A stretch of 32,691 bases of DNA from the NCBI GenBank assembly GCA_902774185.1, contig CACYHE010000019.1, positions 1 to 32,691 of the forward strand, written 5' to 3'. Of this stretch, positions 1,438 through 24,232 are shown in pieces (within the stretch, counting starts at the first letter, position 1; the number at the start of each line of letters is the position of its first letter). Position numbers and translations under genes: made by a program. The DNA comes from an uncultured Bacteroidales bacterium (GTDB lineage: Bacteria > Bacteroidota > Bacteroidia > Bacteroidales > Paludibacteraceae). Under the pieces are notes generated by a model, which saw nothing but the letters and a program-made list of their open reading frames with translations, had not been told where the DNA came from and searched no databases.

Positions 1438-1537
1438 CTCGTCGCTATCACGCGAAGCAGGGAACGGACTAAAGAAACGAGAAGCAGGGGACGGACTAAG
1501 ACAGATCGGAGTTGTTACGACGAGCAGAAAACGGAAT
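1438..1537 (+). repeat. REP cluster upstream of the RAYT gene
   Basis: A REP copy begins at 1438: half-stem CTCGTCG, loop CTATCA, half-stem CGCGAAG, then GCAG and a tail with ACGGACTAA. The two half-stems belong to different REP variants, so the stem is only partly paired. A truncated copy follows (about 1478-1500), and a third at 1506-1537 has loop TTGTTA with half-stems ATCGGAG and CGACGAG, again a mixture. The copies lie upstream of the RAYT promoter and are therefore probably not translated, although the frame happens to be open through them. Confidence 0.75.
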
Positions 1538-1563
1538 AGAAAAATGAGAAAAAAGGAGATATA

Positions 1564-1595
1564 TTTGCATATGTCAGAAAAATGTTGTAACTTTG
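1564..1595 (+). promoter_or_regulatory. Promoter of the RAYT gene
   Basis: TTTG at 1564-1567, 20-base spacer CATATGTCAGAAAAATGTTG, TAACTTTG at 1588-1595. A start of transcription near 1602 would place the upstream part of the open frame outside the message and fixes the ATG at 1628 as the likely start. The palindrome GCGCCAAAATTGGCGC (1596-1611) directly follows, at or near the RNA 5' end, and could be a 5' stabilising hairpin or an operator. Confidence 0.75.
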
Positions 1596-1627: not shown

Positions 1628-2821
1628 ATGGAGGAACAAGAAAAGACTAGTCCGTTGACTGCTTCACGTGACAGCGTGAAGAGAGATTACTATGCGCCTG
1701 TCAAACACAATAAGCAAAGGAGAAAGAGAGGACATGACTATACCTCCGTATCGCTATATTTGATAACGGTTACGACGGTAGAAAGGCAGCGGATATTAGG
1801 GAAACTGGTAGGGGGAAGTGCTGATGAGGCACACGTAGAAGCGACAGACTTAGGGAAGATGGTGATTGCGCTCTTTAACCGCATACCGGAAGTTACAAAG
1901 CAGAAGACGGGGTGCCGGGTGCAGGTGGTTCAGTATCAGTTGATGCCGGATCATTTTCACGGGATATTGTACGTAAGGGACGAATTGCCGAAGGAATGGC
2001 CATTAGGGCAGATTATTGCCGGCTGGAAGGGGGTATGTACAAGGGCGTATAGGGAGACCTTCGCGCTATCACGCGAAGCAGGGGACGGACTAAGGGACTC
2101 GGAGCTGTCACTCCGAGCAGAAAACGGACTAAAGAAACGCGAAGCAGGGGACGGACTAAAGAAACGCGAAGCAGGGGACGGACTAAAGAAACGCGAAGCA
2201 GGGGACGGACTAAAAGATAGTCTGTTTAATGCAGGGTATAATGATCGAGTGCTGAATCAGTATGGGCAGTTAGAGGGGTGGATTGAGTATTTGCGGGATA
2301 ACCCGAGGCGATTGTGGTTAAAAGTGCATAATACGGACCGATTGCGAAAAGTGTATGAGTTTGAGGCAGGAAAGCAAGGGCATCGCTATACGGCAGTTGG
2401 TGAGACATTCTTGGTGAAATATCCGGAGCGAGCACAGGTGCGATGCCATCGTAATCTGACAGAGGAGGAGATAAAAAAGGAAGTAGCTTATTATTTAGGA
2501 TTGGCACGGCAGGGAGTAGTGTTGGTGTCGCCGTTTATATCACCGGCAGAGAAGGCAGTCTATGAGGCGTGCTATCAGGAGAAACTGAAGATGATACGGA
2601 TTGTGAACCGGGCATTGGATGGGAAGTTTGTGTATCCGTCCGGGAGAGATTTACAGGGATGCTCGGATGGTTTCATGCTGGTGTTAGCGCCTTATATGGA
2701 GAATAGCGAGGAGACGAGAGCTGTACGGATATCGCGTGCGACATGCTTGGATATGAACGGGTATGCAGCGGATTTGGCGACCTTCGCGCTATCACGCGAA
2801 GCAGAAAACGGAATAAGATAA
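1628..2821 (+). CDS. REP-associated tyrosine transposase (RAYT, Y1/HUH family) with internal REP array
   Basis: A 397-residue single-strand DNA transposase of the IS200-like Y1 family. YLITVTTVERQRIL (about 44-57) is the first core strand. MPDHFHG holds the HUH pair His109 and His111, which bind the metal. WIEYLRDNPRR places the probable nucleophile at Tyr221; Tyr141 (RAYRE) is a less likely alternative. RAYTs bind REP hairpins and are domesticated rather than freely mobile; that is family knowledge. The start at 1628 is chosen because the promoter at 1564-1595 excludes earlier codons. Oddly, residues 145-195 are encoded by REP repeats (KKREAGDGL occurs three times), residues about 7-19 by an inverted REP, and the last 12 residues plus the stop by another REP. 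The C-terminal half (about 240-385) continues the Bacteroidota RAYT type. Whether the internal insert allows activity is unknown. Confidence 0.85.
   Translation: MEEQEKTSPLTASRDSVKRDYYAPVKHNKQRRKRGHDYTSVSLYLITVTTVERQRILGKLVGGSADEAHVEATDLGKMVIALFNRIPEVTKQKTGCRVQVVQYQLMPDHFHGILYVRDELPKEWPLGQIIAGWKGVCTRAYRETFALSREAGDGLRDSELSLRAENGLKKREAGDGLKKREAGDGLKKREAGDGLKDSLFNAGYNDRVLNQYGQLEGWIEYLRDNPRRLWLKVHNTDRLRKVYEFEAGKQGHRYTAVGETFLVKYPERAQVRCHRNLTEEEIKKEVAYYLGLARQGVVLVSPFISPAEKAVYEACYQEKLKMIRIVNRALDGKFVYPSGRDLQGCSDGFMLVLAPYMENSEETRAVRISRATCLDMNGYAADLATFALSREAENGIR
1646..1681 (-). repeat. Inverted REP inside the RAYT 5' coding end
   Basis: Read on the minus strand this is CTTCACG, loop CTGTCA, CGTGAAG, then GCAG, three bases and ACGGACTA. 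It thus has a perfect 7-base-pair stem, the common loop, and the common tail, but faces opposite to all other copies. Together with the plus-oriented cluster at 1438-1537 it brackets the RAYT promoter and start codon. It encodes residues about 7-18 of the transposase. Confidence 0.8.
2059..2211 (+). repeat. REP array inside the RAYT reading frame
   Basis: Full REP at 2059-2095: stem CTTCGCG/CGCGAAG, loop CTATCA, GCAG and ACGGACTAA tail. Full REP at 2098-2133: stem CTCGGAG/CTCCGAG, loop CTGTCA, GCAG, same tail. Then three identical 27-base units (2131-2157, 2158-2184, 2185-2211) that keep only the right half-stem CGCGAAG, GCAG and the tail. The whole block is 153 bases (51 codons), so the frame is kept; it encodes FALSREAGDGL and three KKREAGDGL units. 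The block separates the HUH motif from the GYNDR and Tyr221 region. Confidence 0.9.
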
Positions 2822-2896
2822 CTCGTCGCTATCACGCGAAGCAGAAAACGGAATAAGATAACTCGTCGCTGTCACGACGAGCAGGAGACGGAGTAA
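2782..2896 (+). repeat. REP cluster at and after the RAYT stop
   Basis: Three copies: 2782-2821 (perfect CTTCGCG/CGCGAAG stem, loop CTATCA), 2822-2861 (left half CTCGTCG with right half CGCGAAG, a mixed copy) and 2862-2896 (perfect CTCGTCG/CGACGAG stem, loop CTGTCA). The first two carry the tail AAAACGGAATAAGATAA, which supplies the RAYT stop codon at 2819-2821. From 2897 to 3021 I see no gene. Confidence 0.85.
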
Positions 2897-22800: not shown

Positions 22801-23040
22801 GCCCTTGCCATCATGAAAGCGGTAGCGGATAACTGCGTGGAGTATATGCAGTTTGAGAAAGCGGTTACAGAGCAGTTTGCTCCTAAGAAAAAGAACGTCA
22901 AACCGCGTGTTGTAGCACCTAAGATGGATCGCGAGCATGCTATCTTAGGCTATGTTCTCCAAGTGTGTGAACGTTACGGAGAGAATGATTTTGTCGATAT
23001 GTACTACCCGGAGTATTTGGCTTATGGAAACAATCAATAA
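19840..23040 (+). CDS. DUF2723 multi-pass membrane protein, probable GT-C glycosyltransferase
   Basis: A 1066-residue protein. About ten hydrophobic segments fill residues 1-370, and a further group lies around 560-700. The first outside loop carries FWDCGEFISSAAKLDVGHPP, the acidic Asp-Glu motif and His-Pro-Pro typical of DUF2723, in the position of the catalytic acids of GT-C enzymes. The last 350 residues are soluble and end in a helical repeat-like region (RDKALEVLDYAEEMLPG, EKEKALAIMKAVAD) that looks TPR-like. The human relative TMEM260 is a protein O-mannosyltransferase, so a role in protein glycosylation is plausible; that is family inference. The start at 19840 is preceded by A-rich AACAACA and fits the membrane N-terminus. 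The end overlaps the next gene by 17 bases. Confidence 0.85.
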   Translation: MKQFKLWNTLCGWLVFAIAAATYLLTMEPTASFWDCGEFISSAAKLDVGHPPGAPFFMLMGHFFSLFASDPAHIAMCVNALSALASAFTILFLFWTITALAKKLVEPDTVGRGVGILLAAAVGALAYTFSDTFWFSAVEGEVYASSSLFTAVVFWLILKWDEQADEEGSDRWLIAIAYLMGLSIGVHLLNLLTIPAIGLVYYFRRYRFTWWGVFAAFAASCGILLVILYGIIPGFPTVAGWFELLFVNKLGCPFNTGLIVYIVLAIAALTWAIIDTAKEEHSRLRQVFAFAAAFSLSGGAFLFEKWWMGILVIGTLLGVMIPLRRFISARWLNTISVMIAVILIGYSSYAALVIRSNADTPMDQNSPDNVFSLKYYLNREQYGDRPLFFGQYYNAPVQLRIQGNMCIPVEKVGHAQYAPAPREEGKKDRYVVTGYKSSYKYMRQFCTLFPRMYSSQGSHQAAYKSWGAVKGKRVKYDYCGQVKSDRVPTFGENLRFFFRYQVHFMYWRYFMWNFSGRQNDLQSYGEITKGNWITGFPVIDNAMLGDQSKLPAELKENKGHNVYYCLPLLLGIIGILWQLIRVNKKGEAVGAKSFTLTFLLFFLTGLAIVIYLNQTPYQPRERDYAYAGSFYAFCIWIGLGALALIDWCTRAIKSKAGQTIVTVLVGLICLLVPAQMASQNWDDHDRSNRYSCRDFGANYLKSCETQGILFSNGDNDTFPLWYNQEVEEVGTDLRVCNLSYLQTDWYISQMKRPYYESEALPISWEYKDFMPGKNEIARVDNRLGQPISVERAFNFLRSEDPRTLNREGEHYIPSDKLYVETPDGEQITFKSKRMYTRSEMMIMEMLSTNNWERPIYFCATVGNDYYLGLEPWMELTGLTYQVTPIRNRDGQPRVNSEKMYENMMHKFQYGNMNIKGIYIDENLMRMCRTHRMMFAQLAEQLIRENQRDKALEVLDYAEEMLPGYNIPYDYTSASMASMYFMLGEKEKALAIMKAVADNCVEYMQFEKAVTEQFAPKKKNVKPRVVAPKMDREHAILGYVLQVCERYGENDFVDMYYPEYLAYGNNQ

Positions 23041-24232
23041 GATTCCGGTTTTACTAATCACCGGTTATCTGGGAAGTGGTAAGACCACGTTGCTCAATCG
23101 TATTCTTACTAACCAAAAAGGTATTCGCTTTGCCGTTATCGTGAATGATATCGGCGAAGTGAATATCGACGCTTCCCTCATTCAGAAGGGCGGGGTGGTG
23201 TCGCAACAGGACGACTCCCTGGTTGCCCTGCAGAACGGCTGTATATGCTGCTCCCTCAAGATGGACCTCATCAGCCAACTGCATGACTTATGTGCGCAAA
23301 AGGCATTCGATTATATCGTAATCGAGGCTAGCGGAATTTGTGAACCGGCTCCGATTGCTCAAACGCTTTGCAGTTATGCGCAGATGGTGCCCGGATTTGC
23401 ACAAGACGGTCTGCCGGTACTCGATTGTATCTGCTCCGTCGTAGATGCTCTGCGCCTGCGTGATGAGTTCGATAAGGGAGATGCTTTGGCACACTATGTA
23501 CCCAAGGAAGAAGACCTTGCTGCACTCGTTATTGAGCAGATCGAGTTCAGCAACCTCATTTTATTAAATAAGGCTTCCGAAGTTAGCGAAGATGAGCTTT
23601 CTCGAATCAGGTCTATCATTCGCGCTATACAACCAAATGCCGAAATAATCGAAACGAACTACTGCGATGTGGACTTGGAGAAGCTGCTGAACACCCGTCT
23701 GTTTGACTTCGATCGTACCGCTACTTCTGCCAAATGGATCCAGGAAGTGGAGGATGCAAGTCATCATCACCACCATGACGAAGAGGATGACGATGATGAC
23801 GATGAGGAGGAACACGAGGAACATCATCATCATGACCATGAACATGGGGACCATGACCATCTTGCTGAGTTCGGTATCGATACCTATGTCTATTTCGCGC
23901 GCAAGCCGTTTGACTTAGGCATGTTCGATGAGTTCGTCGCGGCGCACTGGCCGTCCAACGTTATCCGTTGCAAGGGAATGTGCTATTTTGCGGAAGAGTA
24001 TGACATGTGTTATCTCTTCGAACAGGCAGGTCGCCAGTTTAACCTCCGCAAAGCCGGAGAGTGGTTCGCTACCATGCCGAAAGAAGAGTTGATGCAACTC
24101 ATGGCAGATGATGCCCAACTGCGCAAAGACTGGGATGACCAGTACGGCGATCGAATGCAGAAACTGGTCTTCATCGGTCAACATCTGGACAAACCGGCCC
24201 TCAAAGCTGCCCTTGACAACTGTTTACAATAA
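23024..24232 (+). CDS. CobW/ZNG1-type G3E GTPase with His/Asp-rich metal loop
   Basis: A 402-residue GTPase of the COG0523 group. It has Walker A GYLGSGKT (14-21), the metal-binding GCICC motif at 72-76, and SVVDALRL further on; the base-recognition motif is NKAS rather than NKxD. Residues about 246-281 are almost only His, Asp and Glu, a likely zinc- or other metal-binding loop. A CobW C-terminal domain follows (FARKPFDLGMFDEFVAAHWP, CYLFEQAGRQFNLRKAGEWF). Such proteins insert metals or act as zinc chaperones under limitation. The start at 23024 is chosen because ETINKIPVLLITGYLGSGKT begins there; it overlaps the DUF2723 stop by 17 bases in another frame. The client protein is unknown. Confidence 0.92.
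   Translation: METINKIPVLLITGYLGSGKTTLLNRILTNQKGIRFAVIVNDIGEVNIDASLIQKGGVVSQQDDSLVALQNGCICCSLKMDLISQLHDLCAQKAFDYIVIEASGICEPAPIAQTLCSYAQMVPGFAQDGLPVLDCICSVVDALRLRDEFDKGDALAHYVPKEEDLAALVIEQIEFSNLILLNKASEVSEDELSRIRSIIRAIQPNAEIIETNYCDVDLEKLLNTRLFDFDRTATSAKWIQEVEDASHHHHHDEEDDDDDDEEEHEEHHHHDHEHGDHDHLAEFGIDTYVYFARKPFDLGMFDEFVAAHWPSNVIRCKGMCYFAEEYDMCYLFEQAGRQFNLRKAGEWFATMPKEELMQLMADDAQLRKDWDDQYGDRMQKLVFIGQHLDKPALKAALDNCLQ

Follow-up and report, generated by a model that had tools for sequence, protein, structure and literature searches.

How does a RAYT transposase gene come to carry REP repeats in frame within its own coding sequence, and are the repeats kept there for a function? The question is raised by one gene in a stretch of 32,691 nucleotides from an uncultured Bacteroidales bacterium (contig CACYHE010000019.1), referred to as a whole as the window. 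To our knowledge, the role of RAYTs for their hosts and the way in which REPs stay tied to them are open questions. The gene and its surroundings have the following features, in window coordinates.

1438..1538, plus strand: three upstream REP units, with stems of 4, 1 and 4 of 7 pairs
1564..1595, plus strand: possible Bacteroidota-type promoter, proposed from the window sequence (TTTG 1564-1567, TAACTTTG 1588-1595)
1628..2821, plus strand: RAYT gene, 397 aa from ATG 1628, with a Y1/HUH transposase domain and a C-terminal domain predicted to be DprA-like
1648..1681, minus strand: inverted full REP in the N-terminal codons
1943..1960, plus strand: HUH motif MPDHFH (His109, His111)
2059..2092, plus strand: REP hairpin 1, in frame, 7/7 stem pairs
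2098..2131, plus strand: REP hairpin 2, in frame, 7/7 stem pairs
2132..2212, plus strand: three tandem identical 27-nt partial REP units without hairpin, in frame (2132-2158, 2159-2185, 2186-2212)
2288..2290, plus strand: codon of catalytic Tyr221 (YLRDNP)
2333..2776, plus strand: predicted DprA-like C-terminal domain, with approximate borders taken from the structure model
2782..2821, plus strand: REP hairpin (2782-2815) supplying the last codons, and stop TAA (2819-2821)
2822..2895, plus strand: two REP copies past the stop codon, with stems of 4 and 7 of 7 pairs

The window gene belongs to a two-domain type of Bacteroidales RAYT, in which a Y1/HUH domain is joined to the predicted DprA-like domain. 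Motifs and alignment identify its open reading frame, with HUH and Tyr221, as a Y1-type transposase, and it has the combination of HUH and a single catalytic Tyr in Y---NP expected of a RAYT. His109, His111 and Tyr221 were invariant across 7 aligned sequences, and HUH and Tyr were kept in 45. The NCBIfam model REP_Tyr_transpos (NF047646) matched the window protein at E 5e-5 with 23 bits, below its curated cut-off of 80, and matched 45/45 members of alignment A2, window included, at E <= 0.01. Pfam Y1_Tnp matched at E 0.036, also below cut-off. The low copy number and REP flanks typical of RAYTs were found as well. The gene is single copy in its genome, in which the other RAYTs are paralogues at 29-42% identity, with five paralogues on contigs C4, C16, C17, C25 and C32. 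Another of the genome's RAYT genes has a CRISPR-like array with a period of about 77 nt next to it (L007:837-1492).

The assignment of the candidate promoter follows what we take to be the Bacteroidota-type consensus, and this promoter, if genuine, favors the start at ATG 1628. A sigma-70 and terminator scan gave nothing over shuffles, with a sigma-70 model that does not cover Bacteroidota-type promoters. Upstream of the RAYT, TTAAAAG-type units form an inverted repeat (1242-1276 and 1395-1429), and the gene of locus L157 has a similar pair upstream (780-810 and 884-914). Elsewhere in the window, positions 22952-24232 encode a long His/Asp/Glu-rich stretch inside one protein, presumably a CobW-type GTPase metal chaperone.

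In the window REP unit, CAGnnnACGGAnTA comes after a hairpin of 20 nt with 7-bp stems and a 6-nt loop. As the initial annotation described, positions 2059-2212 comprise two REP hairpins and three 27-nt partial units; all five of these loop units are read in the RAYT frame without a stop and separate HUH (His109/His111) from Tyr221. The array is not a product of chance, since the 27-nt unit recurs three times exactly, the REP tail pattern (<= 2 mismatches) gave 33 sites genome-wide versus 9 for its reversed control, and 8/9 perfect matches genome-wide fall inside the window. The proposed tie of these repeats to the RAYT was borne out, the loop units belonging to the REP family that flanks the gene. 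BLAST with the array gave one more strong match beyond the window, at C25:22814-22899. By eye, the GTAG/GTGG tetranucleotide is absent from the foot of the window hairpin units on both strands. It had also been proposed that the frame stays open through GGACTAAG and is closed by GGAATAAGATAA, but both are read through (GGA CTA AGG and GGA ATA AGA) and the stop is the TAA that follows. Since both units are open in the frame used, the C/A difference between them is no sign of selection. In-frame REPs of the window family were also found in a DUF3987 gene on contig C20 of the same genome (L154:2842-4245, minus strand), as three 63-nt units. An ORF on contig C33 (L155 about 2840-2930), which is partly the same sequence as the DUF3987 gene, holds two 63-nt REP units.

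An AlphaFold2 model of the window RAYT was built from 45 aligned sequences and had a mean pLDDT of 82, with 232/379 residues at pLDDT >= 90. Most residues of the REP-encoded loop were at pLDDT < 50, and the loop between HUH and Tyr is therefore predicted to be disordered. In Foldseek searches, the first domain matched TnpAREP 4ER8 (prob 1.00, E 2.2e-3) and also the IS608/ISDra2 transposases. For the second domain, searched with the window protein only, ShosA was the first-ranked match and DprA 4ljr was matched at prob 1.00, E 2.5e-4 and a target TM of 0.49. The C-terminal domain (2333-2776) is thus predicted to fold like DprA, a single-stranded DNA-binding protein. Sequence profiles did not detect DprA. 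At E <= 10, the DprA profile PF02481 found one gene (on contig C22) in the window's genome and no RAYTs, and a profile search against PDB chains reached E 0.33. Because the sequence profiles fail to confirm it, the DprA likeness is one of modeled structure. Such a domain hints at a tie of the window RAYT to single-stranded DNA handling. No description of a tyrosine transposase fused to DprA was found in the open-access literature searched, and the papers listed by a broader search appeared, from title and opening of the abstract, to have no bearing on such a fusion.

The window protein had matches at E <= 1e-10 in 39/61 genomes of the genus. From these genomes, 87 RAYT loci were taken, window included, and HUH and Tyr could be placed in 85; the gene set left out L111 (interrupted gene), L139 (one motif unmatched) and the second RAYT ORF piece in L133. 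A wider set drew on named genomes, whose titles place almost all of them in Bacteroidota; it began with 80 loci, and removal of 7 duplicates left 73. In the genus, the HUH-Tyr loop ranged from 4 residues (L073, L074) to 95 (L122), with tandem peptides in many, and a few genus members had internal stops. The loops of L117, L081 and L086 consist of short tandem peptides with no hairpin of >= 7 bp, suggesting more in-frame slippage.

Loop hairpins occurred far above chance throughout the genus. Perfect hairpins, defined as inverted repeats with a stem >= 7 and a loop of 3-8, were present in the loops of 70/85 genus genes, compared with 14/85 and 18/85 for two conserved cores. Synonymous shuffling of the genus loops gave a mean of 4.3 and a maximum of 7 of 85 genes with a perfect hairpin. 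The corresponding densities were 9.0/kb in loops versus 0.46 and 0.62/kb in cores. The 73 wider genes had a perfect loop hairpin in 32/73 (shuffles: mean 2.3, maximum 6) and densities of 6.35/kb in loops versus 0.22 and 0.18/kb in cores. Folding relative to synonymous shuffles reached a best-window z < -3 in 43/85 loops, versus 6/85 and 3/85 cores. These synonymous-codon shuffles ruled out chance or codon bias as the origin of the loop hairpins. The hairpin was missing in 15/85 genus genes and 41/73 wider genes. On a core tree of 93 rows, its presence required 11 changes, 9 of them forced by well-supported branches, so the loop hairpin is neither universal nor the result of a single event.

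Loop DNA was compared with the flanks of its own gene in 81/85 loops, four being too short, with each ranked against 84 foreign flanks. Own flanks ranked in the top 5 for 37/81 loops, versus 6/85 and 4/85 for the core controls, and the score between loop and own flank was >= 18 in 27/81 loops, versus 0/85 and 1/85. Among the matches listed for 26 strong loci, loop-like copies lay on the 5' side 48 times, on the 3' side 32 times and in the core once. This placement covers 1.5 kb on each side and up to 12 copies per locus, L125 having at least that many, with L133 omitted because of a tandem gene copy.

One clade is marked by a Tyr motif ending in NPQR, and its loop element consists of an outer stem and an inner stem. 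Covariation was assessed in an alignment of 24 elements (23 distinct), drawn from 43 hairpins in 38 genes and lying 130-149 nt from the HUH start. The inner stem was picked for perfect pairing, and covariation was judged on the outer helix, which was unused in the choice of rows. The outer helix was paired in 81.4% of cells. Its covariation of 0.791 compares with 0.228 for shuffled alignments (0/500 as high), a test that kinship among rows can inflate, and with at most 0.324 for the safer slid controls. Pairs with two-sided changes showed no excess (6 versus 6.4 shuffled), and 18 pair types versus 16.2 shuffled were counted as not exceeding shuffles. As neither stood out from shuffles, the covariation signal comes from paired cells and score. 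In this clade, then, the paired bases of the loop element covary.

A covariance model of the element found it in the loops of 33/38 clade genes, 24 of which had built the model. In the same 38 genes, copies occurred on the 3' side in 15/38 and on the 5' side in 8/38, some of them distant, and in no core. Across 87 sources, 65 sites were typed, to E 0.043, on one strand each and with L111 omitted. Loop sites numbered 36 (24 being model rows), 3'-side sites 20, 5'-side sites 9 and core sites 0; two distant ones were in L109, 1.5 kb past the stop (counted 3'), and L105, 2.9 kb before HUH (counted 5'). Searched against the 61 whole genomes at E 1e-5, the model gave sites in 24 genomes, 49 being distinct once strands were merged. 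Model rows accounted for 23 of these, and the other 26 were 15 loops (one in the interrupted L111), 9 sites near gene starts or ends and 2 elsewhere. Among the 10 model-site loci beyond the RAYT set, 8 contain a RAYT whose HUH and Tyr enclose the element, and the other 2 have copies near the start of a non-RAYT gene. Two-stem elements were seen in two genomes near a lipoprotein-like gene start, at L279 (about 2012-2060) and L280:1695-1743, with no RAYT in the examined stretch. Identity between loop and end copies was 0.762 within a locus (n=19) and 0.625 between loci (n=716), and in only 8/15 loci was the loop copy matched best by the end copy of its own locus. Core identity and element identity were modestly correlated (Spearman 0.32, over 528 non-independent pairs).

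The nearest relatives of the window gene, L071 and L157, share 97-99.5% DNA identity with each other over the gene and downstream, and 94-95%, with indels, in the more distant upstream DNA. The loop of L071 contains 6 copies at a 45-nt period, that of L157 contains 2. A change in array size thus alters DNA sites and protein together, as the initial annotation anticipated, and the comparison of homologues that it proposed revealed variation in both presence and copy number. L073 and L074 carry hairpin repeats at both gene ends without a loop insert, and the internal copy is therefore dispensable. A 54-nt C-terminal REP is present in L071 and absent in L157, with no target duplication visible. 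The window gene also ends in a REP at this position, which makes loss in L157 the more economical interpretation. Given metagenome assemblies, the tandem difference could partly reflect collapse; the single-copy C-terminal difference hardly could. The N-terminal codons of both relatives hold a REP copy in the same orientation as the window's 1648-1681, while their loop copies are on the minus strand and those of the window on the plus strand. These orientation flips in the window clade, together with the missing hairpin in 3/5 window loop units, look like turnover. Loop copies match the flanking REPs, and their number, orientation and presence vary among relatives while the frame stays open.

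On balance, we favor the explanation that cognate hairpins settle in a loop that tolerates them, undergo in-frame turnover and are kept as nucleic-acid recognition sites, the retention for function being what we infer from the patterns above. The enzyme's own REP hairpins sit at the gene start, the HUH-Tyr loop and the gene end, and copies would arrive through REP mobilization near their own RAYT gene. Loop copies may then grow or shrink via in-frame recombination or slippage. Since the loop is predicted to be disordered, the enzyme should be little harmed by sequence inserted there in frame. The hairpin rather than the peptide would be kept, recognized by the RAYT in the gene that encodes it, whether as single-stranded DNA or as mRNA. 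The covarying hairpins favor such putative binding of the RAYT to its own gene or mRNA, an effect suggested in the initial annotation, and the outcome may be autoregulation or a lasting enzyme-substrate linkage. Several observations count against retention: the in-frame REP of the same family in the DUF3987 gene, the genes without a loop hairpin (L073 and L074 among them), the signs of turnover in the window clade, the two covariation counts that did not exceed shuffles, and the 8/15 loci in which the own end copy matched best. The covariation could also have arisen outside the gene and then been copied in. A broader proposal, which we put forward tentatively and with some doubt, is that most genes of this Bacteroidales RAYT-DprA family are self-tagged, carrying a maintained, private cognate hairpin in one loop of the catalytic domain that covaries and is matched to gene-end hairpins. 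If true, enzyme and substrate would be inseparable, and paralogues within one genome would stay orthogonal. A likely substrate hairpin inside the enzyme's own gene, together with natural copy variants between close relatives, brings binding, autoregulation and REP movement within reach of direct experiment.

The same observations can be read as insertion that is tolerated only, in which REPs land in or near the RAYT gene, persist where the loop makes them harmless and undergo slippage there with the hairpin unselected. The authors of PMC6006769 take a similar view and, in the available excerpts of their paper, suggest little impact on activity. It also agrees with the predicted disorder of the loop, the missing insert in L073 and L074, the varying orientation and copy number and the REP in the unrelated DUF3987 gene. 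It is harder to reconcile with a two-stem element in 33/38 clade loops (24 having built the model), compensatory changes in its outer helix and perfect hairpins in 70/85 loops versus 4.3 under synonymous shuffling, and we regard it as possible but rather doubtful. Retention might also take a narrower form at the RNA level, with hairpins at the start, middle and end of the mRNA binding the RAYT or a ribonuclease and limiting expression. The start-loop-end layout of copies would suit such control, and the covariation test is blind to RNA versus DNA, but hairpin orientation differs among orthologues. Judged from sequence, this form seems unlikely.

The initial annotation had further offered a regulated linker and self-inactivation as possible effects. 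A function of the peptide itself would suit a repeat that is always in frame and variable in length. Orthologue loop peptides are unrelated because opposite strands are read, the loop is predicted to be disordered and some relatives have no loop insert, all of which makes a protein-level linker very unlikely. Inactivation of the gene by the array would be in keeping with the internal stops of a few genus members, but the window gene is open with HUH and Tyr present, and dN/dS was 0.05-0.30 in 8/10 compared RAYT pairs, those with a finite estimate. These pairs indicate that the RAYT genes are under purifying selection; the window's own two pairs had a dN of 0.10 with dS saturated. We give decay almost no weight.

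The IS200/IS605 TnpA enzymes, such as those of IS608 and ISDra2, have hairpin substrates and share the Y1/HUH fold with the window RAYT. Unlike them, the window RAYT has no second genomic copy and has an extra domain predicted to be DprA-like. A closer precedent corrects the initial annotation, which held REPs to be normally confined to the DNA outside a RAYT gene. Quentin et al. 2018 (PMC6006769) had already described TnpAREP genes with REPs in frame, as a rule in the stretch from HuH to Y, and the available excerpts of that paper call in-gene REPs unique to subclass 2.4. According to these excerpts, subclass 2.4 and the window gene have in common flanking REPs, a variable peripheral extension and REPs that are read in frame in the HuH-Y interval. 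They differ in motifs (MPDHFH and YLRDNP in the window, NH[IFV]H and YIxNNP in subclass 2.4), in length (397 aa with the DprA-like domain versus 194, taken as the mean length) and in their REPs, which lack the GTAG/GTGG foot in the window and carry GT[AG]G in subclass 2.4. Although the hallmark is common to both, the motifs, length and GTAG REP description in the excerpts would set the window gene apart, and we do not file it in subclass 2.4. Subclass 2.6, as presented in the same excerpts, resembles the window gene in its Bacteroidetes hosts and atypical flanking structures; it differs in having NH[LIV]H, YIH[QN]NP and a length of 179, and in-gene REPs are credited to 2.4 alone.

Repeats inside coding sequence are also known from other genes. 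The available part of PMC3733652 describes GTAG/CGTC REPs within the ORFs of many genes, including Rickettsia palindromic elements. As in the window, these are in-frame palindromic repeats in coding genes, often in dimers or groups. Their hosts, as listed there, are repair, replication and tRNA enzymes and more, whereas the window host is a transposase flanked by the same repeats. In the later literature searched, no mention of in-gene RAYT REPs was found beyond the available excerpts of PMC6006769. The general form of the window array is therefore already published, and the array itself is real and non-random. Beyond the published cases, many genes of the family carry hairpins at one spot, with paired bases that change together. 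Within the literature searched, the covarying loop hairpin, the start-loop-end layout, the turnover and the predicted DprA-like domain appear to be additions to what is known.
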